Source of the DNA: Candidatus Nitrosocaldus schleperae
GTDB lineage: Archaea; Thermoproteota; Nitrososphaeria; Nitrososphaerales; Nitrosocaldaceae
Assembly (NCBI GenBank): GCA_013538805.1
Contig: JABXGR010000008.1
Coordinates: forward strand, 1 to 63,736
Reading direction: 5' to 3'
DNA: 63,736 bases
Part shown: positions 29,619 through 50,189 of the stretch, piece after piece
Layout: each line of letters begins with the position of its first letter
Numbering within the stretch: position 1 is the stretch's first letter
Made by a program: the position numbers and the translations under genes
Notes under the pieces: generated by a model
Told to the model about the DNA's origin: nothing
Databases searched by the model: none
What the model saw: only the letters and a program-made list of their open reading frames with translations

Positions 29619-30419
29619 TTATGTATGCTCCTTAACAAGTTCGTACTTGCTCTTGTACCCTCTAGGGTTTATCATGAGCCCTTTATAGATGAAGGTTGAT
29701 GAGTTCCCAACTATTATAGTTGTTAGCATGCCTAGATGATCCTGATACTCAAGCATATGCTCAAGATCTGTAAGCACTATGCTCTGTGCATCTCTATATG
29801 CAGCCTTGACTATAGCAACTGGTGTCCTTGCACTTCTATACTTGAGGAGTATATCCCTTGTATCCCTAAGTTGATGGACCCTCTTCTTGCTCTGAGGATT
29901 GTATATAACGATAACAAAGTCTCCTTGTGCTGCAGCCTCTACCCTCTTAACTATCATATCCCATGGGACTAGCAAGTCGCTCATGCTAACTACAGCAAAG
30001 TCAGTCATCAATGGCGAGCCTACTAGCGCTGCTGCTGCATTCAATGCTGATACACCTGGCACTATCTCAACGTATGGGTTCTTGCCATCCCAGTTACGCT
30101 CTGCAAGCACCTCATACACAAGCCCAGCCATACCATATATCCCTGGATCCCCGCTAGAGACTAGAGAGACTGTATTACCTTTTCTTGCAAGATCTATTGC
30201 ATGATTTGCTCTATCAACCTCTTGCGTCATTGCATATGCATACACTTCTTTGCCCTCAAGCATATGCCTTATCAGATCGATATAAGTCTCATACCCTATC
30301 ACTATATTGCTTGACTCTATGCACTGCTTTGCTCTAAATGTCATATGCTCCTCATACCCTGGACCTATACCAACTATGTATAGTTTGCCTACACCACTAT
30401 TGCCATTACCATTCAGCAT
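29619..30419 (-). CDS. cbiH: Precorrin-3B / cobalt-precorrin-3 C17-methyltransferase
   Basis: 266-aa SAM-dependent methyltransferase of the tetrapyrrole family: 'LYIVGIGPGYEEHMTFRA' N-terminal loop, 'VSSGDPGIYGMAGLVYEV', 'VPGVSALNAAAALVGSPL' and 'IVIYNPQSKKR'. This set marks CbiH/CobJ, which methylates C17 and contracts the corrin ring during B12 synthesis. Length is normal. It is isolated from other cbi genes here; bluB at 14.3 kb is the only other B12 gene in the window. Confidence 0.93.
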   Translation of the reverse strand: MLNGNGNSGVGKLYIVGIGPGYEEHMTFRAKQCIESSNIVIGYETYIDLIRHMLEGKEVYAYAMTQEVDRANHAIDLARKGNTVSLVSSGDPGIYGMAGLVYEVLAERNWDGKNPYVEIVPGVSALNAAAALVGSPLMTDFAVVSMSDLLVPWDMIVKRVEAAAQGDFVIVIYNPQSKKRVHQLRDTRDILLKYRSARTPVAIVKAAYRDAQSIVLTDLEHMLEYQDHLGMLTTIIVGNSSTFIYKGLMINPRGYKSKYELVKEHT

Positions 30420-30538: not shown

Positions 30539-31180
30539 ATGCCAATAGTATATAGCATAGCATTAATGATCATAACTACAACGATGATCCTCTTGCCTAT
30601 ACTAACATCATCTGTATATGCTACAGATTACTACTCAGGGCGTAGATGGAGTGGCACTGCTGTTGATCTATACTATGATTCTTATGGGCTAAGTTATCTT
30701 AGAATAGATGGTCAAACTAATCAGTATACGAAGGTTCAGCAACAACTAGATATAGCAAGGAATGATTGGAATAATCAGCCATCAAGATTCACCTTGAATA
30801 AGATAAGCGGGCAAGGGTGTATAAATTGGATCTATGCTGCGAATAGAGGCTATAATGGACCAGCAGCTGAAACAATGTTATGTATAAATTCTGTATCAAC
30901 ATGTTATTATAGTTTTGATAATATGCCTAGTGGTAATATAGTAAAGGCTGCTGTAACATTCAATGCATATGATGCATGGAGCACAACACGAGAATGTACT
31001 GTATGGACAGATGAAGATGGACCATGGACATTGAACTATGTTGCAAGGCATGAGTTTGGGCACTGGGTAGCATTTAAGCATACTTCTAGGGTATCTGTGA
31101 TGTATACCTTCTATGACTGTAACTATAGGGACTCTATAAAACCTCATGATAGTGATTCCCTAACATCTATATATGGGTGA
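30539..31180 (+). CDS. Secreted matrixin-like zinc metalloprotease
   Basis: 213 aa. A signal peptide (about residues 1-28, ending TSSVYA) precedes a protease domain with HEFGHWVAFKH (residues 171-181), the HExxHxxxxxH zinc site of metzincins with Ala where Gly is usual. A Met-turn follows (SVMYTF, M188), and the C-terminus 'HDSDSLTSIYG' is like the end of matrixins. Six Cys suggest disulfides outside the cell. No propeptide Cys-switch is obvious. The next gene, a membrane-anchored protein, starts 4 bp after its stop, so they form a unit. Confidence 0.85.
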   Translation: MPIVYSIALMIITTTMILLPILTSSVYATDYYSGRRWSGTAVDLYYDSYGLSYLRIDGQTNQYTKVQQQLDIARNDWNNQPSRFTLNKISGQGCINWIYAANRGYNGPAAETMLCINSVSTCYYSFDNMPSGNIVKAAVTFNAYDAWSTTRECTVWTDEDGPWTLNYVARHEFGHWVAFKHTSRVSVMYTFYDCNYRDSIKPHDSDSLTSIYG

Positions 31181-31184
31181 TCTA

Positions 31185-32144
31185 ATGAAGAGGCAGCCTT
31201 TATTATTGGTATTAGTGCCAGCAGTAGTTATAGGAGCAGTAATAATGGTTACCTATCTAGCATTGTATGCTACACATAGCACTCACGATGAGGTTAGGAG
31301 TAATGTTGAGTCATACACACCAGGCTACATGGGTGAAGGGAACTTCAGTATAGATAGCATGTCTAGATTTGCAAGGTATATAGTGATAGGCACAATAGCA
31401 GATACAACTTCTCGATCTTATCTCTTATTTGATAAGGTTGAGGAGTATCATAATGGAATTGTGGTTAATATAGATTCAGAGCTTACAGGTACATACAACA
31501 ATGACAAAAGGATATACTTCGTTGGTCCATCAACCAATTGGGTTAAATCAGGGGATAAGGTTCTTGTATTTCTAGCAGATAAGGAGCCAGATAGTGTATG
31601 GGGCAACAACTACTATATAATAGGAGGATTATATGGGTTGTTTAAGGTTATCAATGACAAGGTGTATGGGGAGATCCTTCCAGAAGGGCTCCCATTGAGT
31701 GATGCTATCAAGATTATAGAGGAAGCAAGGGCTAATAGAATAAAGGATATCTCGCTTAATGCAAAATATATAGTGATAGGGAGGATAAGTGATATAGTAA
31801 GAGAGGACCCATACTCTGATACGCACATCAAAGTTGATGTTGAGAAGGAATTAACAGACAATTATAATGAAGAGAGGATAACACTTCTTATTGATGAGAA
31901 GGTATTAAAACACTGGGGTGAAGGTAGGGTAGGGGAAAGATATCTATTCTTCGTTAGAGATGATACAAAGAGAGGAGATGATGATAATAATAGTGATGGT
32001 AGTAGCAATACTAACTATAGTGTTGGTAAGAGTGGTGTATACTACATCAACGATGATGGTATTGCAAGAGGCCGTGAATTTCCAGAAGGTATATCTATAG
32101 ATGAGTTGAAAGCAAAGATAATTAAGTTTAGAAGAGGGGAATGA
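31185..32144 (+). CDS. Membrane-anchored protein with two repeated domains
   Basis: 319 aa: an N-terminal transmembrane helix or uncleaved signal (about residues 6-29), then two related domains of about 120 residues. Both begin with a (R/K)YIVIG-I-D pattern ('ARYIVIGTIAD', 'AKYIVIGRISD'), continue with an 'EL...YN..RI' strand pair and end with a PEG motif ('EILPEGLPLSDAI', 'REFPEGISIDELK'). The duplication is visible directly; the family is not one I recognise. An Asp/Ser/Asn run (about residue 270) is low complexity. It follows the protease by 4 bp and may be its substrate, inhibitor or anchor. Confidence 0.7.
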   Translation: MKRQPLLLVLVPAVVIGAVIMVTYLALYATHSTHDEVRSNVESYTPGYMGEGNFSIDSMSRFARYIVIGTIADTTSRSYLLFDKVEEYHNGIVVNIDSELTGTYNNDKRIYFVGPSTNWVKSGDKVLVFLADKEPDSVWGNNYYIIGGLYGLFKVINDKVYGEILPEGLPLSDAIKIIEEARANRIKDISLNAKYIVIGRISDIVREDPYSDTHIKVDVEKELTDNYNEERITLLIDEKVLKHWGEGRVGERYLFFVRDDTKRGDDDNNSDGSSNTNYSVGKSGVYYINDDGIARGREFPEGISIDELKAKIIKFRRGE

Positions 32145-32191: not shown

Positions 32192-32878
32192 TTACAGCAT
32201 AGACTCTGCAACCTTGATGAGTTCAGACTCTGGCAGGTAAGCCCTTATCTGTATAAGCAGTTTATCCTTTAAGCAGTCTAACTCTGCTAGCAGTGGAACC
32301 TTCCTTCCTATAGCATCCTCAACTATCTGGCTATCGTATGCTACGCATTGGTAGCCATCTATTGTAAGTTTGTGTGCCTTGTACTTCTCAAACTCTTTAA
32401 CCCACTCCTCCATCTGTTCCTCAATGCTTATAGGCCCACCAGTAGCCTTTGCTTCTTCCTCATCTGCAGCAGTGCTATATCTCTTGCTTATATCATATAT
32501 GTAGATAATCATACCCTTACCAGTATAGTAGAAGTCTTTGTATCTTGTCTTCCCATCTATCATCCTATCCCATGCATACATTTTTACACTGTCATCATAT
32601 GCATACATACCTTGTATCTTATACCCTTCAGGCAGGTATGTAGGATAAGGTACATCATAGCCAACTATGGTACTTGCCTCATCCACACCATTAACAGGTT
32701 TATCATATTCACTGAGAAGAGGTATAGGAGGTATTGCAAGATTGCTGGCAAACTCATCACTATTATTACTGCTTGTTTGTTGTCCCCCATAATCAAGATG
32801 AGCCACAGTTACACTTACACCTATCACAACAGTCGCTATAGTAATAGCAATCATTATTGCAGTCTTTCTATTTAGCAT
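32192..32878 (-). CDS. Membrane-anchored DUF4367-like protein
   Basis: 228 aa with an N-terminal hydrophobic segment (about residues 6-27), then an extracytoplasmic domain with 'YPTYLPEGYKIQGMYAY' near residue 80 and 'KLLIQIRAYLPESELIKVAESML' at the end. A 'YLPEGY' opening and a C-terminal helix ending 'LIKVAESM' are features of DUF4367-type domains found in surface proteins. Function unknown. It overlaps the preceding broken secreted-protein gene by 7 bp, implying an operon. Confidence 0.65.
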   Translation of the reverse strand: MLNRKTAIMIAITIATVVIGVSVTVAHLDYGGQQTSSNNSDEFASNLAIPPIPLLSEYDKPVNGVDEASTIVGYDVPYPTYLPEGYKIQGMYAYDDSVKMYAWDRMIDGKTRYKDFYYTGKGMIIYIYDISKRYSTAADEEEAKATGGPISIEEQMEEWVKEFEKYKAHKLTIDGYQCVAYDSQIVEDAIGRKVPLLAELDCLKDKLLIQIRAYLPESELIKVAESML

Positions 32879-33590
32879 AAGTCCCTACCACCTCCCTTTG
32901 CTACCTTAAAGTGTGTAAACGGTGCATCATTACAGTAATCTACAGTGTAACCGTTATCTGGGACTATGACGTACCACTTGCTTGCAACACTGCTAGATAG
33001 CAACACCCATCCCGTACTAGGTTTATAATACATAAAGTCTTTATAATCATTTATGCCAGGATTTACATCATAGTAACCAATCTCATAGCCAGCACCTGTT
33101 TTAATTGCATAACTATTTCCAAGATTGTTTGTAGTTATTGTATCTGTACCTACTCGTAACACCCATCTTCCATCTCTATCTGAATCTTGTATGGTAAATA
33201 ACCAAGTACTGTTATTGTTTGGACATGTATTGTTAGTACACCATCTCTTTTGTATAATTCCATCCAGAGCCCAGTACCATTGTGGTGTGTATGATGCACT
33301 TGCTATCCAACCAATCTCAAGTAATCTATCATTAACTGCAGTGACCCATAATGGACTTACCATGTATCCAACCATATTGGATGGATATGGTACCTTCTGC
33401 TTTATACCAGCCCTAGTGATGAACTATTCGTGAAAAAGGTATACATACCTGTGGCATAGCAATCCTCTCCATAGGTAGCAGTGCAGTTAGTTGCTCCATA
33501 CACCATCATCATGCTTGGTGCAATGCTTGATACTACAAGCATACCTGCAGTAATAACTGCGATTGTTATCCTTGATGCTATTGGCTTCAT
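32872..33590 (-). pseudogene. Secreted protein interrupted by one frameshift
   Basis: The first frame (ATG 33590) gives a signal peptide MKPIASRITIAVITAG...VYG and about 30 mature residues ending NSSSLGLV before a TAA at about 33402. The adjacent frame continues without an ATG of its own near the junction as 'GIKQKVPYPSN' and then 166 residues ending at 32872 ('NGYTVDYCNDAPFTHFKVAK'). Moving back one base between about 33405 and 33425 joins both into one exported protein of about 230 residues. The mature part is Tyr/Trp/Asn rich with paired Cys. It may be a true pseudogene, a sequencing slip, or a programmed -1 shift. Confidence 0.7.
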
Positions 33591-33706
33591 TATCAAGAAG
33601 GTTATGCAAGAATGATATATATATCACTAGAATATTCAACCAGTTAGTAAACACTATCATACTAGAATATAGAACCTGGTGAATAAGCAGTTACCCGCTT
33701 GCTCAT

Positions 33707-33766
33707 TCAACTATCCTCCTAACATCCCCTTCAAGTACACCAGAGCCTATATGCAATCTATCTATA
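33707..33766. repeat. 60-bp direct repeat, left copy (flanks vapBC)
   Basis: These 60 bases are identical to 34833-34892, which cover the last codons of the intact CBS-domain gene. The similarity continues leftward less exactly (33521-33600 against 34718-34790), where each copy carries the start of the MKPIAS signal-peptide gene. The two copies bracket the vapBC module. Confidence 0.92.
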
Positions 33767-33842
33767 AGTCAAAACTATCATCTAAGGGCTGATTTCTCAA
33801 CACAGCTCTATTTTACAACAGGTCTTAACAAGGAAGGTTTAG

Positions 33843-34268
33843 TTAGTCGAATCTCCTCTTTAATGGAGTTCTATCAAAGTCCTCATCATTAGATATTATC
33901 TCTCTTGCCCTACTCCTTAATGCAGAAGCCAAGTGTATAGCATCCTCATAATCTATCCTATACTCTCTCATCAGTTTAGTTGCGTTTGTTACATCTTCTA
34001 CTGTTAATGGTATTATTCTTAAACCTGCTAAGCCCCCTATTGAGTTTATAACCTCTTCTACCAATCCCTGATCCTTTAGGGTCTTTCCTGTCAAGCCACC
34101 TATTATAACCATTGTCTCGTATAACGTTAGTGCTGATGTCACATATTGCCTCCGTGAGGCTCCTTCAATCTTCTTTATCCATTTATAGGATGTTCTGCCA
34201 AAGGTAGGATGGTTGCCAAGCCAATAAACAAAGACATTTATGTCTACATAGCCTTCTGGATCAGCCAT
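33843..34268 (-). CDS. vapC: PIN-domain toxin VapC
   Basis: 141-aa PIN-domain ribonuclease: 'GYVDINVFVYWLG' gives the first acidic residue, 'LTLYETMVI' the conserved Glu, and 'RIDYEDAIHLASALR' plus 'IISNDEDFDR' the C-terminal acidic residues. VapC toxins cut tRNA or rRNA when not held by VapB. Its ATG lies 25 bp inside the end of the antitoxin gene, the usual TA overlap. Confidence 0.9.
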   Translation of the reverse strand: MADPEGYVDINVFVYWLGNHPTFGRTSYKWIKKIEGASRRQYVTSALTLYETMVIIGGLTGKTLKDQGLVEEVINSIGGLAGLRIIPLTVEDVTNATKLMREYRIDYEDAIHLASALRSRAREIISNDEDFDRTPLKRRFD

Positions 34269-34489
34269 CGTTCCATAACCTCTGTTATAAATTCATCAAG
34301 GTTCTCTGGCCATTTTGTTATCTTAAAGGCTCCAAAGTATTTGTCAGCTATAGGCTCAATGGGTTCTATCGTAATGCCTTTCTCATCAACTCTTACCTTG
34401 ACATAACTCTCCTCCTTCACCCCAATCTTCTCTCTAATATTTTTAGGGATGAGAATCCTACCTTTCTTATCTACCTTCACGATCTCCAT
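34244..34489 (-). CDS. vapB: AbrB/MazE-like antitoxin VapB
   Basis: 81 aa. The N-terminal swapped-hairpin domain 'VKVDKKGRILIPKNIREKIG' is the SpoVT-AbrB DNA-binding motif, and the C-terminal part ('WPENLDEFITEVMERWL') would wrap VapC. The start at ATG 34489 is preferred over 34516 because TATA-like GAATATTTAAATAT lies at about 34524-34537. As in other modules it should repress its own promoter alone or with VapC. It lies between the two copies of a direct repeat. Confidence 0.88.
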   Translation of the reverse strand: MEIVKVDKKGRILIPKNIREKIGVKEESYVKVRVDEKGITIEPIEPIADKYFGAFKITKWPENLDEFITEVMERWLIQKAM

Positions 34490-34693
34490 AGATATTATCC
34501 CACTGATTTTTTGCATCCCATATATTTAAATATTCCCACAATATATAAGATGGGAAATAGTTGGTTGCTATGCTGATTAGTGTAAATATTGGAAGATTTG
34601 GATCAACCTAAAAGATATGAGAGAGTAGAAGATGGTTATCAACTATAGATATTTTAAACAGAAAAGGATGAAAGATTTGGCACCATTAAGATA

Positions 34694-34786
34694 CTATGCA
34701 AGAAACTTTAGGTATAGGTTTGATACCATGAGTATGCATACAGTAATAACTACTGCAATTGTTACCCTTGATGCTATTGGCTTCAT
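34694..34786 (-). pseudogene. Truncated 5' copy of the secreted-protein gene
   Basis: ATG 34786 opens MKPIASRVTIAVVITVCILM, nearly the same signal peptide as the gene starting at 33590 (MKPIASRITIAVITAG). After 30 codons it stops at 34694-34696 with no mature domain. The region 34517-34828 otherwise holds only the vapB promoter and non-coding sequence. It is a leftover paralogue or the broken half of a duplication. Confidence 0.75.
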
Positions 34787-34828
34787 TTATAGATTAACAG
34801 ATAAGCAGGTTACTCATTAATTCACTAA

Positions 34829-35479
34829 CTACTCAACTATCCTCCTAACATCCCCTTCAAGTACACCAGAGCCTATATGCAATCTATCTATATGCTTTGA
34901 TAAGGCATTCTTATCATCGAATGGTGAGCCACAGTATGGACATGATAACTTTGCCTCAATAGCCTCCTTAACATACGCTATAGCCTTTGGGTTTATTATG
35001 CATACAGGAGTACCTTTCAATGCAGTCTGGGATGTCATCATGCTTGCCTTGTGTATCTTCTCAAACAAACCTTCCCTAGTAACCATACCTATAACTGTTG
35101 AGCCAGAACTAACTATAACCTGCCTTAGAACATGCTTCTCCATCACTGCTAAAGCATCGCTTATGCTAGTCTTTGGGGATATAGTTATTATTGGTGAACT
35201 CATTATCTCCCTTAGCCTAACCTTGTTTGGGTTCTTGCCCTGAGCCATAACCTTGAAGAGTATATCAGTCTTTGTAACTATACCTATAGCCTCACCGTTA
35301 TGTGTTACAAGCACGCTCCTAGAGCCTCTCTCCTTCATGATAGAAGCAGCATCCGCAGCACTCATATTCCCTTCAAGCGTAACAACGTTTGTTGTTAGTA
35401 CATACTCAACAGGCTTGTTGAGTAGTGATTCAACATCCTCATACTCATACCCTTCTCTTTCTTCTGATGGATATGACAT
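34829..35479 (-). CDS. CBS-domain pair protein with C-terminal zinc finger
   Basis: 216 aa. Two CBS motifs (about residues 25-80 and 85-145: 'RGSRSVLVTHNGEAIGIVTK', 'MEKHVLRQVIVSSGSTVIGM') form a Bateman module that normally binds adenosine nucleotides. After a linker, 'CPYCGSPFDDKNALSKHIDRLH' is a C2H2 zinc finger. The combination suggests a nucleotide-sensing regulator that binds nucleic acid or protein. Its last 60 bp occur again at 33707-33766. Confidence 0.85.
   Translation of the reverse strand: MSYPSEEREGYEYEDVESLLNKPVEYVLTTNVVTLEGNMSAADAASIMKERGSRSVLVTHNGEAIGIVTKTDILFKVMAQGKNPNKVRLREIMSSPIITISPKTSISDALAVMEKHVLRQVIVSSGSTVIGMVTREGLFEKIHKASMMTSQTALKGTPVCIINPKAIAYVKEAIEAKLSCPYCGSPFDDKNALSKHIDRLHIGSGVLEGDVRRIVE
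34833..34892. repeat. 60-bp direct repeat, right copy (inside CBS gene end)
   Basis: Identical over 60 bp to 33707-33766. It covers the last codons of the CBS-domain gene, so this copy is the original and the left copy is the duplicate. Confidence 0.92.
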
Positions 35480-35531
35480 GCATCTATAGTGAAAAGATGG
35501 CTATTTAAATGTGGCTATGACTATATTTTAC

Positions 35532-36113
35532 TTATCTACCTGTCAGATACCTCCTCTCATCCCTCGCCATGAGGTAGAATGCATGAGCACTTATCACAAA
35601 TGCAGCAAGGAACATCTTTGTAGCAAATACAAGGCTCCAGGGTGTCTTTGGGTTTGGATAAGGGATGTTAAGAACATCTATCCTTATTATCCCGCTTATA
35701 GCATCTGCAGTCATAAGAGCATTCCAGACTACAAAGTTGTATATCAACTCATAGAGCGAGACTACTGCTATTGATAATGCTATCAACTTGAGTATTGCTC
35801 TATTCTTAGCAGAGATGTTCTTGGTCTTCTCCCTCCCTATCTTGGTTACACAGTACCATCCAACGACTGAGGAGATCATGAGATAGGTTACAAGCTTTGC
35901 GAAGCCCTTGAATGGTACCTCAGTATTCACCAGAACCTCTCCTATGACTACGCTACCACTTGCAAGGTATTCTCTAATGCTCTCAGCAAGAGCATATACA
36001 GTTATGCTCAGCATTACTGCAGCACATATATAGAAGATGATCTTGTAGACTAGCATGCTCTTCACATACCCCTTTGCATAGTTATCATCAGTCTCATCAC
36101 TCCTTGGCTGCAT
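35532..36113 (-). CDS. Four-helix integral membrane protein of unknown function
   Basis: 193 aa with about four transmembrane helices (near residues 18-42, 68-88, 105-130 and 160-182), a basic cytoplasmic loop 'KIGREKTKNISAKNR' and a charged N-terminus. No catalytic or transport motif is recognised. The start is the ATG at 36113. It lies 52 bp after the CBS gene's start on the same strand, so the CBS gene may be cotranscribed with it. Confidence 0.65.
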   Translation of the reverse strand: MQPRSDETDDNYAKGYVKSMLVYKIIFYICAAVMLSITVYALAESIREYLASGSVVIGEVLVNTEVPFKGFAKLVTYLMISSVVGWYCVTKIGREKTKNISAKNRAILKLIALSIAVVSLYELIYNFVVWNALMTADAISGIIRIDVLNIPYPNPKTPWSLVFATKMFLAAFVISAHAFYLMARDERRYLTGR

Positions 36114-36302
36114 GATCCTACTACCTTAGCCTAAGAATAAAAATTTTTCGTAACATTAAGGGCAGTATATTAAATTAGTTACCTATACCTGGATAATACT
36201 AGTATATTCAGTAATGAATCACACTCTATTTTGGGTCTTTTGTAAGCAATAGATAGATTATTTATTTAGTCTTATGGGTATAATGTTGGTGATGATACAA
36301 GT

Positions 36303-36932
36303 ATGGTAAGCATAAGTATAGCAGAGGAGGTTAGAGATTACAGAGTAAGCCTGTATGCAAAGGCTATGGATGTTAAGGTAAGGCATGACCATGACTATAG
36401 TAAGGTTATGGATGAGTTGAGGACAAAGCTAACGTTAAGCAAGGATGATCTGAAGAACCATCCAGTCGTTAGAGCATTAAGGGACTTTTACTGGAGGTTA
36501 GGCATAGACCCCACAAAGGTTAGACCATCGAGCGAGGCATTGGCAAGGAGGTTCTTGATGGGGAAGATGCCAAGGATAAACAACGTTGTGGATGCTGGCA
36601 ATATAGCATCGATAGAGACCTTAGTACCAATAGGCATATACGATCTTGGAATGGTTAATGGTATGCTTGTACTTAGAAAAGCAATGAACAATGAAGAGTT
36701 CGTTGATATAACTGGCAAGGCTAGTAGACTTACTGGGAAGGAGATAGTACTTGCTGATGAGCAAGGGGTTATGCATGTATTTCCCCACAGGGATGCTCTT
36801 AGGACATCGGTAAAGGATTATACAAGCAGGATACTTGTAGTTGGATGCTATGTAATGGATGGTATGGATGCATCATTGGCCAAGGCTGCTGTAGATAGAA
36901 CGATAGAGTTGATAAGGGCATCTTTATCATGA
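36303..36932 (+). CDS. B3/B4 tRNA-binding-domain protein
   Basis: 209 aa consisting almost wholly of a B3/B4 domain, the fold that edits misacylated tRNA in phenylalanyl-tRNA synthetase beta. 'ALRDFYWRLGIDPTKVRPSSEALARR', 'VVDAGNIASIETLVPIGIYD' and 'VFPHRDALRTSVKDYTSRILVV' fit stand-alone B3/B4 proteins. It may hydrolyse mischarged aminoacyl-tRNA in trans, but this is not shown. Convergent with the P-II gene downstream. Confidence 0.85.
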   Translation: MVSISIAEEVRDYRVSLYAKAMDVKVRHDHDYSKVMDELRTKLTLSKDDLKNHPVVRALRDFYWRLGIDPTKVRPSSEALARRFLMGKMPRINNVVDAGNIASIETLVPIGIYDLGMVNGMLVLRKAMNNEEFVDITGKASRLTGKEIVLADEQGVMHVFPHRDALRTSVKDYTSRILVVGCYVMDGMDASLAKAAVDRTIELIRASLS

Positions 36933-36974
36933 GTAAGATAGCAGCAGTAGTACTTACATTATATGAAGTAAGGA

Positions 36975-37310
36975 TCATACCTTAACTATCTTCTCAAGCC
37001 TCCTTATCTGCTCTATTGGCATTATAACAGCCCTCCCAACAAGCCCTTCATTTACACCTATTCCTGCGTTCTTTGCTATTATATCTAGCACATCCTCAAC
37101 CTCTCTATCAGCAACTATGAGTTCTATCTTTGATGCTGGTAGAAGTTCGGGCTTGTATGAGCCAGTGCCCCTTGCTCCTGTAAGCACTATCTGAAAGAGA
37201 CCTTTACCATATCCATTAACTATGAATATGTTATCAACCCCGTATCGCTTCAATGCTCTATACACGATATCAACCTTCTCAGATGCAACTATTGCTTCTA
37301 CCTTCTTCAT
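36975..37310 (-). CDS. P-II family nitrogen regulator 1
   Basis: 111 aa, P-II fold: 'MKKVEAIVASEKVDIVYRAL', a T-loop region 'GKGLFQIVLTGARGTGSYKPE', then 'SKIELIVADREVEDVLDIIAK'. P-II trimers sense ATP/ADP and 2-oxoglutarate and bind partners such as AmtB by the T-loop. A Tyr is present at the T-loop end (SYKPE). ATG 37310 is chosen because GTTTTTATACC (37333-37343) lies about 25 nt upstream; ATG 37331 would be too close to it. It is one of two P-II genes divergent from amtB. Confidence 0.85.
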   Translation of the reverse strand: MKKVEAIVASEKVDIVYRALKRYGVDNIFIVNGYGKGLFQIVLTGARGTGSYKPELLPASKIELIVADREVEDVLDIIAKNAGIGVNEGLVGRAVIMPIEQIRRLEKIVKV

Positions 37311-37370
37311 GCTACTATTAATGGTCTTCATGGTATAAAAACCATTGCCAGTATGCTAACATTATGATAT

Positions 37371-38042
37371 CTATATCCTTAGCAGTTTGCTCCTCCCCTC
37401 TATGCTCTTCTGTCTCATCTCGCTCTCTATGATTGGCAAGTAACCGAGTATGCAGAAGTTAACGAAGTCACTGAACGATTTTATCCTATACTCTGATCTC
37501 AACGTATCCTTGTTAGCATTGTAGAACTTGAGTACCCTCATCAAGGTGTACTTCTGTAATGGCACAAGTCTACTTCTCTTTTCACGTTCCTCATACTCAC
37601 CAGAGCTTGCATCTATACTATCTGTAGAATCCTCATAGCTATCACTGCTATGCTCCTTATCAGCACCAACCATGCTACTATGCTGCTTATATGATCTATC
37701 CTCATTAGCGTTCACATCCTCAAGGTCCTTTATAACATGCATCTGCGATACATCCACTATCTCCTCAAGAGAGGAGACGAATATCTTCGTGTACTCTTTA
37801 TGTTTGCCAGATACAGTACTTATAGCATCTATAACTCTCTTTGCATCCCTATCACTTACTATAAGCTCAACCTTGGTCAAGAACTCACCTAGACCGCCCC
37901 CTCTTCCTACAGCACCATTCCTTGAGGTTATATTAGGGCTTGTGATGTTATGCATGCTCAATCCATATATCTCAAACCTCTCTAACTGCATCTTAAGGTC
38001 TGGAACTATCTCTGTCCTAACTATAGCCTCTATCCTCTTCAT
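37371..38042 (-). CDS. P-II family protein 2 with long C-terminal extension
   Basis: 223 aa, twice the normal P-II length. Residues 1-100 keep the P-II fold (MKRIEAIVRTEIVPDLKMQL, 'TKVELIVSDRDAKRVIDAI', 'KIFVSSLEEIVDV'), but the T-loop is Asn/Gly-rich with no tyrosine. An acidic Ser/Asp/Glu linker (about 105-155) leads to a helical domain 'LQKYTLMRVLKFYNANKDTL'. The partner is unknown. The start at ATG 38042 lies about 20-25 nt from TTTATAATT at about 38060-38068. It lies upstream of P-II 1 on the same strand, 60 bp apart. Confidence 0.8.
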   Translation of the reverse strand: MKRIEAIVRTEIVPDLKMQLERFEIYGLSMHNITSPNITSRNGAVGRGGGLGEFLTKVELIVSDRDAKRVIDAISTVSGKHKEYTKIFVSSLEEIVDVSQMHVIKDLEDVNANEDRSYKQHSSMVGADKEHSSDSYEDSTDSIDASSGEYEEREKRSRLVPLQKYTLMRVLKFYNANKDTLRSEYRIKSFSDFVNFCILGYLPIIESEMRQKSIEGRSKLLRI

Positions 38043-38115
38043 GGGAATATGTAATGATAACATAATTATAAATGTTAGCTAGAATGATAAGCTTTTGATA
38101 ATAAAAAATGGTTGA

Positions 38116-38328
38116 TCAAGGCACAAGTCTGTACTTGGAGTAGAAACTCTTCCTTATCAGATGCTGCACAAGCATGAAGAACAGCACGGTTAAGAGTGTG
38201 GCAAGGTATGTAACTATCAGGCCTGGAGGCTTTGATAGAGGCTGTGGTGCTCCTAAGGCATATGCGCTTGATAGCATCATAGATAGCAAGGATAGTGTGG
38301 CTAGTGCACCAACTATATATCCCTTCAT
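38116..38328 (-). CDS. Small membrane protein beside amtB
   Basis: 70 aa: a signal-like hydrophobic segment (residues 4-24, 'GALATLSLLSMMLSSAYA'), a Pro-rich turn (APQPLSKPPG) and a second helix (about 34-54) before a basic end (IRKSFYSKYRLVP). The ATG at 38328 sits about 25 nt from TTTTTATATAAG (38347-38358), consistent with a leaderless mRNA. It lies between P-II 2 and amtB, divergent from amtB. A role in ammonium transport is only a positional guess. Confidence 0.6.
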   Translation of the reverse strand: MKGYIVGALATLSLLSMMLSSAYALGAPQPLSKPPGLIVTYLATLLTVLFFMLVQHLIRKSFYSKYRLVP

Positions 38329-38483
38329 GCATACTGTATGGTATAACTTATATAAAAAGATATTCAAATGATTATCATCTTTATAAGATACTCGGTAGAG
38401 TTAATACTCATGATAAGCTATTGGATATCATTATATTATTTTTTTTAAAAAACTTTAAAAATGCTATGTAAAGTAGTAAATGC

Positions 38484-39713
38484 ATGCCAATAGATACTGG
38501 AGATACAGCATGGATGATACTCTCAACAGCGATGGTCTTCCTCATGATAGGAGGAGTAGGCTTCCTTGAGGCTGGGCTGATAAGGGCAAAGAACGCACTT
38601 GGTATCCTCATGAAGGTGTATCAGACAGCAACGATAGGGCTTATAGCATGGTTCATAATTGGCTTCAGCCTTGCATTTGCACCATCTGAGCATGGATGGA
38701 TAGGCACGTTCGATTACGCATTCATGAATGGAGTTACGCTAGAACCTATGGACTATGCACCAACCATACCAGGCTACCTCTTCTTCCTCTTCCAGGGTAT
38801 GTTCGCTGCAATAACTGTAGCACTGATAAGTGGAGGCATAGCAGAGAGGATGCGCTTCGGTCCTTGGCTTGTATTCATCTTCATCTGGATGATATTCGTG
38901 TATGGTCCAGTTGCACACTGGATATGGGGCGGAGGCTGGCTTGCACAATTGGGTGCTAGGGACTGGGCTGGAGGTATAGTCATACATGTTGCAGCAGGGT
39001 TCTCATCACTGGCAGGGGCACTTGCTCTAGGTAGAAGGCTAGGGTTTGGTAAGGCAGAGACCATGGTACAGCATAATGTACCATATCAGTTCCTTGCAGC
39101 GTTCCTGCTCTGGTTTGGCTGGAATGGGTTCAACGGAGGGAGTGCACTAGCATCGAACGAGGCAGCAGTTGCAGCAATAGTAAGTACTAACCTTGCTGCT
39201 GCAGCAGGTGCAATAACAACCTTACTTGCTGGATGGGCTAGGAGCAAGAAACCAAGCACTAGTCTTGCAGCAAACGGATGCATAGCAGGTTTGGCAGCAG
39301 TAACACCAGCAGCAGGATTCATAGAGGCATGGGCTGGTGTAGTTATAGGTGCAGTTGCAGGAGTTGTCTTCTACGGTTTCGTGCTCCTCTTCAAGGAGAA
39401 GCTCAGAATAGATGATGCATGTGATGTCATAGCAATACACGGCATGACTGGTGTATGGGGCAGCATGGGCGTAGCACTATTCGCATCTCCAATGGTTACT
39501 GGAGGGGCATTGACAGGTGTTGCATATGGCTCAGCAGAACTTGTAGGAGTACAAGCACTTGCTATAGTTGTAACTGCAGCATTTACATTCACACTAACAT
39601 ACGTAATAATGCAGATAATGAACAAGGTTACACCTATAAGACTGAAGCCACAGGAGGAAGAGGCTGGCGAGGATGTAGTACTACATGGAGAGAAGGCCTA
39701 TCTGACTGTATAG
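38484..39713 (+). CDS. amtB: Ammonium transporter Amt
   Basis: 409 aa, about 11 transmembrane helices. Hallmarks include 'GDTAWMILSTAMVFLM', 'MFAAITVALISGGIAERM', 'DWAGGIVIHVAAGFSSLAGA' (pore His), 'FLLWFGWNGFNGGSAL' and the second pore His in 'DVIAIHGMTGVWGS'. It carries NH4+/NH3 across the cytoplasmic membrane and is normally blocked by a P-II trimer when nitrogen is plentiful. The extra C-terminal 'PQEEEAGEDVVLHGEK' faces the cytoplasm. Start ATG 38484 follows CTTTAAAA (38453-38460). P-II genes lie just across the divergent promoter. Confidence 0.97.
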   Translation: MPIDTGDTAWMILSTAMVFLMIGGVGFLEAGLIRAKNALGILMKVYQTATIGLIAWFIIGFSLAFAPSEHGWIGTFDYAFMNGVTLEPMDYAPTIPGYLFFLFQGMFAAITVALISGGIAERMRFGPWLVFIFIWMIFVYGPVAHWIWGGGWLAQLGARDWAGGIVIHVAAGFSSLAGALALGRRLGFGKAETMVQHNVPYQFLAAFLLWFGWNGFNGGSALASNEAAVAAIVSTNLAAAAGAITTLLAGWARSKKPSTSLAANGCIAGLAAVTPAAGFIEAWAGVVIGAVAGVVFYGFVLLFKEKLRIDDACDVIAIHGMTGVWGSMGVALFASPMVTGGALTGVAYGSAELVGVQALAIVVTAAFTFTLTYVIMQIMNKVTPIRLKPQEEEAGEDVVLHGEKAYLTV

Positions 39714-48017: not shown

Positions 48018-50189
48018 ATGAGTCAGAAGGTATTCACTCTGAAGGTGCTCGAAGCGTACACTAGGGATGTGGGGAGAGGGGTTGCAAGGATAGATTATGA
48101 GTCTATGGATTCACTTGGTGCATCAACTGGCGATATAGTTGAGATAAAGGGTAAGAGGAGGACAGTTGCAAAGTGCCTTCCCCTGTACCCTTCAGATGAG
48201 GGTAAGGGCATAATAAGGATAGATGGGCTTGTAAGGAACAATGCAGGTGTTGCCATAGGCGATACTGTTATAGTTAGGAAGATAAAGGCATCCCCAGCAG
48301 AGAAGGTGATAGTTGCTCCATTGGAGGCTATACCACCAATAGATGAGCGCTACCTTGCTGATGCACTTGAGAGCATGCCATTGGTCAAGGGTGATAATGT
48401 TATGGTACCATACTTTGGTGGAAGGTTAACCTTCCAGGTAGTTGCTGTTAACCCTGCAAATGTTGAGGCAGTTATAGTTACGCAGAAGACTGTATTCCAT
48501 ATAGCAGAGAAGGGAGAGACGATAAGAGGTGTTCCAAAGGTAACCTACGAGGATATTGGAGGGTTGAAGGAGGAGATACAGAAGGTTAGGGAGATGATAG
48601 AGTTGCCATTAAGGCATCCAGAGATATTCGAGAAGTTGGGCATAGAGGCACCAAAGGGTATACTGCTCTACGGTCCCCCTGGTACTGGTAAGACCCTGCT
48701 TGCAAAGGCAGTTGCAAATGAGAGCAATGCCCACTTCATAAGCATCTCAGGGCCTGAGATAATGAGCAAGTTCTATGGTGAGTCTGAGGCAAGGCTTAGA
48801 GAGATATTCAAGGAGGCAAGGGAGAAGGCTCCCAGCATAATCTTCATAGATGAGATAGACTCCATTGCTCCAAAGAGGGAGGAGGTAACTGGGGAGGTTG
48901 AGAGGAGGGTTGTTAGCCAGTTACTCTCACTCATGGATGGGTTGGAGTCTAGAGGCAAGGTTATAGTCATAGCAGCAACCAATAGGCCTAATGCAATAGA
49001 CCCAGCACTTAGAAGACCAGGAAGGTTTGATAGAGAGATAGAGATAAGGGTTCCAGACAAGAGGGCAAGGCTTGAGATACTGCAGATACATACAAGGAAC
49101 ATGCCACTTGCACCAGATGTCAACCTTGAGAAGATATCCAACATGACCCATGGCTTTGTAGGTGCAGATCTCGAGTATCTATGCAAAGAAGCAGCAATGA
49201 AGTGCTTAAGGAGGGTTCTTCCAGAACTCAACCTTGAGGAGGAGAAGATACCCCCAGAGGTTCTCAACAAGTTGATAGTTACAATGGATGACTTCATGGA
49301 GGCTTTGAAGGAGGTTACTCCATCAGCGATGAGGGAAGTGTACATAGAGACGCCAGATGTGAAGTGGAGCGATATAGGAGGGCTTGAGGATGTGAAGAGG
49401 CAACTTCAGGAGGCTGTAGAGTGGCCCCTCAAGTACCCAGATCTATACAAGAAGTTAGGGCATAACATGCCTAAAGGTATACTATTGCATGGACCATCTG
49501 GTACTGGCAAGACGATGCTTGCAAAGGCAGTTGCAACTGAGAGTGAAGCGAACTTCATAAGCGTTAGAGGTCCAGAACTGCTCAGCAAGTGGGTTGGTGA
49601 GAGTGAGAGAGGTGTTAGAGAAGTATTCAGGAGGGCAAGGCAGGCTGCTCCATGCGTAATCTTCTTCGATGAGATAGACTCACTTGCTCCAATAAGGGGT
49701 ATGGGAGGGGATAGCATGGTTACTGAGAGGGTTGTGAGCCAGTTACTTACTGAGATGGATGGGATACAATCATTGCAGGGTGTTGTAGTGCTTGCAGCAA
49801 CCAACAGGATAGATATGATGGATCCAGCACTCCTAAGACCAGGGAGGTTTGATAAGTTGGTGTATGTGCCTATGCCAGACAAGTATGCAAGGCATAAGAT
49901 ACTAGAGATACATGTCAAGAACAAGCCACTCGCACCAGATGTCAACCTTGAGAAGATAGCAGAGATGACTGAAGACTTTAGTGGTGCTGATGTTGCAGCA
50001 GTTGTAAATACAGCAGTATCACTTGTACTCCATGAGTACCTTGCAAAGTATCCAAACCCTGAGGAGGCAGCAAAGCACGTTGAGGAGGCTTACATACACC
50101 ATAGACACTTCGAGGAGGCTGTCAAGAAGGTCAGGCAGCAGAAGGAGGGCAAGCCAGGAGAGAAGGTTACAGTGCCCTATTATAGATAG
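48018..50189 (+). CDS. cdc48: Cdc48/VCP (VAT) AAA+ unfoldase
   Basis: 723 aa: an N-terminal double-psi barrel and beta-clam domain (1-180), AAA module D1 with Walker A GPPGTGKT at 219-226 and Walker B '[12 protein letters not shown]', and D2 with GPSGTGKT at 492-499 and '[12 protein letters not shown]'. SRH arginine fingers are present in both ('[10 protein letters not shown]', '[10 protein letters not shown]'). It unfolds proteins and feeds the 20S proteasome. The last residues PYYR fit a hydrophobic-Tyr-X docking tail. D2's P-loop has Ser where Pro is usual. Start ATG 48018, with RBS-like GATAGGTAG upstream. Confidence 0.97.

Follow-up and report, generated by a model that had tools for sequence, protein, structure and literature searches.

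Direct repeats that copy the 3' end of a protein-coding gene are known from the integrated elements of thaumarchaea (Krupovic et al. 2019, PMC6563490), which also share with the locus described here a stop-codon difference between the arms and, in a case elsewhere, a VapBC cargo. The present locus differs from these elements in its size of 1.1 kb, the lack of an integrase on the contig, a repeat longer than usual for the group and an inner end homologous to the chromosomal neighbour native to the site. Homology-facilitated illegitimate recombination, described in several species (PMC3240628; PMC5361080, the latter for Vibrio immunity-gene arrays), also combines one homologous anchor with one illegitimate junction and integrates DNA additively, leaving an orphan gene end duplicated beside a toxin-type cassette, as is proposed here. 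In the present case, however, the process is deduced from sequence, and the cassette is a putatively resident vapBC pair rather than a T6SS effector pair.

In bacteria, recombination at core genes that flank variable spots devoid of mobile elements has been documented (PMC5635113, 2017). These hotspots likewise show conserved borders, shifting content, no recognised mobile element and a mosaic border gene; they were found within bacterial species, whereas the comparison made here extends across species of one archaeal genus, in six genomes. With regard to the VapBC type II toxin-antitoxin systems, the domain content, gene order, overlapping genes and acidic residues of the PIN domain all match at this locus and nothing notable sets the present pair apart, several homologues having Q where E51 is found here.

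The window analysed is the whole 63,736-nucleotide stretch of contig JABXGR010000008.1 of Candidatus Nitrosocaldus schleperae, in which a perfect 60-bp direct repeat (33707-33766 and 34833-34892) brackets a vapBC operon. The repeat around vapBC is a genome rearrangement of an ordinary kind, and its probable origin is examined below by comparison of the six genomes of the genus, the present one included. The five congeners are denoted G001 to G005, G004 being HRbin04.

Results and discussion

The cbiH-CBS interval

The vapBC pair lies between two conserved genes, cbiH and a gene for a CBS-domain protein (hereafter CBS). The features of this interval are as follows, sec denoting a secreted-protein gene.

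29619..30419, minus strand: cbiH, precorrin-3B C17-methyltransferase, left conserved border (TIGR01466, 319 bits)
30539..31180, plus strand: M10-like metallopeptidase gene, accessory in the interval (Pfam PF00413, E=1.5e-7)
31173..32144, plus strand: uncharacterised partner gene of the M10 gene (open reading frame; co-conserved on contig C114 of G004)
32192..32878, minus strand: DUF4367-like gene, assigned to allele A of the model below (whole protein about 50% against G001 and G004)
32872..33590, minus strand: sec, left copy (open reading frames 32872-33375 and 33402-33596; frameshift near 33402-33430)
33591..33706, no strand: left intergenic DNA, G005 allele (150/152 bp over 33615-33766)
33707..33766, minus strand: left 60-bp repeat, orphan CBS 3' end, then TGA as in G005
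33767..33825, no strand: junction J1 and filler without a match in the six genomes of the genus
33843..34268, minus strand: vapC, PIN-domain toxin (Pfam PF01850, E=1.6e-17)
34244..34489, minus strand: vapB, MazE/AbrB-type antitoxin (PF04014, E=2e-10; TIGR01439, E=6e-12)
34490..34717, no strand: vapB upstream region, homologous to the same region of G004 up to 34710
34720..34787, minus strand: truncated sec start, right copy, adjoining the deletion junction J2 at about 34717/34718
34829..35479, minus strand: CBS-pair and C2H2-like zinc-finger protein, intact, right conserved border (PF00571, E=2.8e-23)
34833..34892, minus strand: right 60-bp repeat, 3' end of the intact CBS gene

The border genes are well conserved, with cbiH orthologues at 91-94% in G001-G004 and CBS orthologues at 91-98% in all five congeners. 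The intact CBS protein comprises two CBS domains and a C2H2-like finger, and proteins 90-98% identical to it are found in Candidatus Nitrosocaldus and related records.

The M10 gene and its uncharacterised partner, which has no NCBIfam match, form a recurring pair (window 30539-32144; L083 2426-4120; L081 71-1862), and a second M10 pair is present on contig C9 of G000. The M10 gene is not found in the cbiH-CBS interval of G001, G002 or G004. The M10 pair of G004 resides on contig C114, where it adjoins an IS630-type transposase, with matching 30-bp ends on both sides and the cut end of a DUF4367 gene nearby.

Regularly spaced direct-repeat arrays, with the 30-bp repeat GTTTGAATCGAACTATAGTAGGATTGAAAC and with GTAGCATAGGCTATAACTCCGTTCAGGGAATTGAGAG, occupy both ends of the contig (50-438 and 63401-63681) and look like CRISPR arrays where the assembly broke. 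Elsewhere in the window, 48651-49991 holds a diverged tandem duplication, with blocks of 229 bp and 117 bp at a spacing of 819-822 bp that are 74-79% identical.

The 60-bp repeat and its two arms

The exact repeat around vapBC, as reported in the original prediction, was confirmed and has a unit length of 1,126 bp. When the two 1.6-kb flanks were shuffled 100 times under a first-order Markov model, their longest common word had a mean length of 11 bp and was at most 15 bp, which excludes a chance origin of the 60-bp repeat. The open reading frames also agree with the prediction that the right copy is the end of an intact CBS gene, of which it forms the last 20 codons, and that the left copy is only a fragment. 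The stop-codon region of the CBS end reads GAA TGA on the left and GAG TAG on the right, and it is this difference that ends the repeat core, within the final sense codon.

Homology extends beyond the 60 bp, which are the fully matching core of a block consisting of the sec start, intergenic DNA and the CBS end. In both arms, intergenic DNA separates the CBS end from the start of one common sec gene, which, as predicted, is frameshifted on the left and cut on the right after 30 codons (translation MKPIASRVTIAVVITVCILMVSNLYLKFLA, then a stop codon), about 22 of them homologous. An intact sec homologue of 238 aa is encoded in G004, and sec is also decaying in G001. A source for the filler at J1 (33767-33825) was sought in the six genomes of the genus and none was found. 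A MAFFT alignment hinted that the left CBS fragment might reach past 33766 after a small deletion; this was rejected, as its local score was met in 8% of shuffles.

The vapBC pair

vapB lies upstream of vapC and the two genes overlap by 25 bp. The vapB start MEIVKVD is common to G004, while the mechanical open reading frame reaches 34516. The acidic PIN residues D9, E51, D109 and D128 are all present in VapC (alignment A1), and the pair is probably a normal VapC RNase with its VapB antitoxin, the toxin activity being predicted from the sequence. In the same alignment, position 51 is E here and in G004 and Q in the other four homologues, which may be weakened or rely on another residue. A PDB sequence search with VapC gave no match at E<=0.001, and in base composition the module is not distinct from the rest of the interval.

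The distribution of close VapC homologues is patchy, with matches at E<=1e-20 in 10 of 400 genomes of the class. Between the present genome and G017, VapC shares 78% identity, and an aminoacyl-tRNA synthetase-like protein whose gene lies near cbiH shares 60%. Long-term horizontal spread of vapBC, usual in such modules, is suggested by these comparisons.

Gene orders across Nitrosocaldus

The conserved borders cbiH and CBS enclose differing gene contents among the congeners, as given below.

Present genome: cbiH, M10 pair, DUF4367, sec, orphan CBS end, vapBC, sec start, CBS
G001: cbiH-DUF4367-sec-CBS
G002: cbiH-CBS, with only about 550 bp in between
G003: DUF4367-sec-CBS, with a different gene beside cbiH, across a contig gap
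G004: cbiH-vapBC-DUF4367-sec-CBS, without repeats
G005: intact CBS joined directly to the left-type intergenic DNA; the contig stops 92 bp past the CBS end, beyond which the full allele is unseen, and the assembly is without cbiH

On the cbiH side of G003 (L105 4916-5638) lies a coiled-coil protein gene, and a second, 79% similar stretch (L068 1-161) opens the contig that carries DUF4367-sec-CBS.

A single CBS end occurs in four of the five congeners (G001, G002, G003 and G005), and the same four have the insert-free site. No copy of the present VapC was found in G001, G002 or G005, and G003 has only distant PIN proteins (36% or less). A relative with one CBS end and no vapBC, proposed earlier as the way to recognise the ancestral site, is thus represented four times, and this is the common state in the genus.

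Over 898 bp, covering vapBC and about 200 bp upstream of vapB, G004 is 88.2% identical to the present genome, and the flanks show comparable identity (88.1% on the cbiH side, 88.6% on the CBS side). The G004 pair occupies the same interval in the same orientation, but is placed between cbiH and DUF4367. Because the same vapBC, resembling its neighbours in identity, sits in the interval of G004, vapBC is best seen as an older resident of the variable cbiH-CBS interval. From vapBC through its upstream region and the sec start to CBS, the right half of the locus corresponds to the G004 order minus about 1.37 kb. With vapBC taken as a resident and the right half as the G004 order after a deletion, the repeat would therefore have to stem from a second sec-CBS end added on the left. 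No flanking repeat of at least 14 bp was detected at the other vapBC loci examined, for which the bounds were exact in G004, G017 and G010 and approximate in the remaining loci.

Two arms, two probable alleles

The left arm (33615-33766) matches G005 at 150/152 bp, with the same stop codon (GAA TGA). The right arm carries the stop codon TAG, as in G004 and G001, and its sec start matches G004 at 59/62, G001 at 59/64 and the left copy at 56/65, a comparison of about 64 bp (3 versus 9 differences) that is too short to decide alone. Across the whole unit, the CBS ends agree at 60/60 and the sec starts at 56/65; the right intergenic DNA is about 70 bp shorter than the left and barely alignable to it. 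The two arms thus look like different alleles rather than fresh copies, as judged from these alignments. The CBS 3' end is conserved genus-wide, at 96-98% to G002, G004 and G005, and the identity of the CBS fragment alone therefore says little on its age.

Recombination may also be read from the surrounding sequence. The DUF4367 gene is mosaic, its last 185 bp or so being 89% identical to G001 and G004 and the remainder lacking a DNA-level match, which suggests a further recombination breakpoint inside the gene. Against G005, the sequence is 95-98% identical over about 34850-35800 but 74-85% by 35900-36800, a region in which G001 mostly stands at 91-93%, and the identity climbs again at 38450-39600. 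Tracts similar to this mosaic over CBS occur elsewhere, so that 95-98% may represent no more than the high end of ordinary variation. Over 35850-39650 of the window, the nearest relative switches abruptly from G005-like to G001-like and back to G005-like over an ammonium-transporter gene. Such switches point to frequent recombination between Nitrosocaldus species.

Proposed origin of the repeat

Built on the observed repeat, gene orders, allele identities and single-copy sites, the reading that we favour, with somewhat better than even confidence, is a fusion of two alleles through one illegitimate join and one homologous exchange in the conserved CBS 3' end, together with a deletion. The cbiH-CBS interval would be a variable segment diversified by recombination in its conserved borders. 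Allele A, G005-like, would have ended in DUF4367-sec-CBS, and allele B, G004-like, would have had the order vapBC-(DUF4367-sec)-CBS, with DUF4367 and most of sec deleted at J2. One end of the additive join may have been a homologous crossover within the conserved CBS 3' end, as the similarity of the alleles suggests, and the other an illegitimate join at J1 (33766/33767), beside the CBS end of allele A. In this way vapBC, a passenger that resided in the interval beforehand, would come to lie between an orphan CBS 3' end and the intact gene. The order of these steps, the mechanism of the joins, and the donor allele and direction of transfer are likewise tentative reconstructions from the compared genomes.

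RadA and Hjc have been reported for N. cavascurensis (PMC5797428). A RadA-type recombination is the presumed agent of the exchange. We know of no natural competence in Nitrosocaldus.

Alternative explanations

A first alternative starts from an ancestor with the G004 order, in which vapBC-DUF4367-sec-CBS end would have been tandemly duplicated in situ; the left copy would then have lost vapBC and the right copy DUF4367 and most of sec, and no foreign allele would be involved. The duplicated content and its order agree with the arrangement in G004, the copies of the CBS end are identical, and the decay of sec in G001 as well indicates that loss would be easy. This explanation accounts for the gene content but not for the unequal arms. 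The left and right sec starts show 9/65 differences and indels, as against 2/152 between the left arm and G005; the right sec start is nearer to G004 and G001, the intergenic regions barely align, and the left part of the interval has the M10 gene and its partner in place of vapBC. After a recent duplication, the copies should resemble each other closely and to the same degree along the entire unit, and they do not; an old one is at odds with the 0/60 differences in a CBS fragment that has no function, unless gene conversion is assumed. Duplication followed by loss is therefore considered unlikely. The original prediction that vapBC arrived by, or caused, a tandem duplication of its target is not supported, as vapBC occurs in G004 without repeats, the other vapBC loci examined have none of 14 bp or more, and the arms are unequal.

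Site-specific integration, in which the CBS end would serve as the attachment site and 33767-34832 would be an integrase-less vapBC element, moved in trans or decayed, has precedents among thaumarchaeal integrated elements: 14 of the 68 mapped lie in 3' ends of protein genes, one resides in a zinc-finger gene with replacement of the stop codon, and one carries VapBC (PMC6563490). The stop codon differs between the arms here as well, and contigs C4, C8 and C16 of the genome have integrase-family matches, but the present contig has no integrase (PF00589) match. The attachment sites of the thaumarchaeal elements are mostly shorter than 26 bp, with a median of 17 (PMC6563490), as against 60 bp here, and the inner right end is the sec start, a native chromosomal neighbour of the CBS end. 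Repeats are lacking at vapBC of G004 and at the other vapBC loci checked, and no relative of VapC was found in viral contigs and only one, 29% identical, on a plasmid. Taken together, these observations render integration quite improbable.

The assembly might instead have joined two co-occurring strains at a 60-bp common sequence, the left flank and vapBC being on separate molecules, or, in a variant, the repeat unit might really be a circle alongside an empty site. An exact repeat of 60 bp can be longer than short-read k-mers, the assembly is a draft of 16 contigs and the arms look like different alleles. Against such a chimera, the junction of the CBS end with 33767 must occur in the reads, and the sequence adjoining it is never found beside a CBS end in the congeners; the contamination of the genome is listed as 0.05%. 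An assembly chimera is thus very improbable, and it and site-specific integration are both less likely than the fusion of two alleles.

A highly speculative reading, to which we attach very little weight, takes the 1,126-bp unit as a minimal mobile cassette without an integrase, made up of vapBC and a CBS-end attachment sequence, which would circularise and re-enter the CBS 3' end by means of the host's RadA or an integrase acting in trans. Transposition with target-site duplication was rejected, as the homology passes beyond the 60 bp into sec and, in line with the original prediction, no transposase was recognised among the open reading frames around the module.

Implications

The biological stakes of this rearrangement are modest. 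The flanking of a toxin-antitoxin pair by a direct repeat of a gene end does not in itself demonstrate site-specific integration, and similar arrangements deserve to be read with this caution. The position of vapBC relative to its neighbours varies between species of Nitrosocaldus, and the scar at the present locus would keep two parental alleles side by side. The locus thus offers a readable case of a variable interval in a thermophilic ammonia-oxidising archaeon that changes its content without a mobile element.
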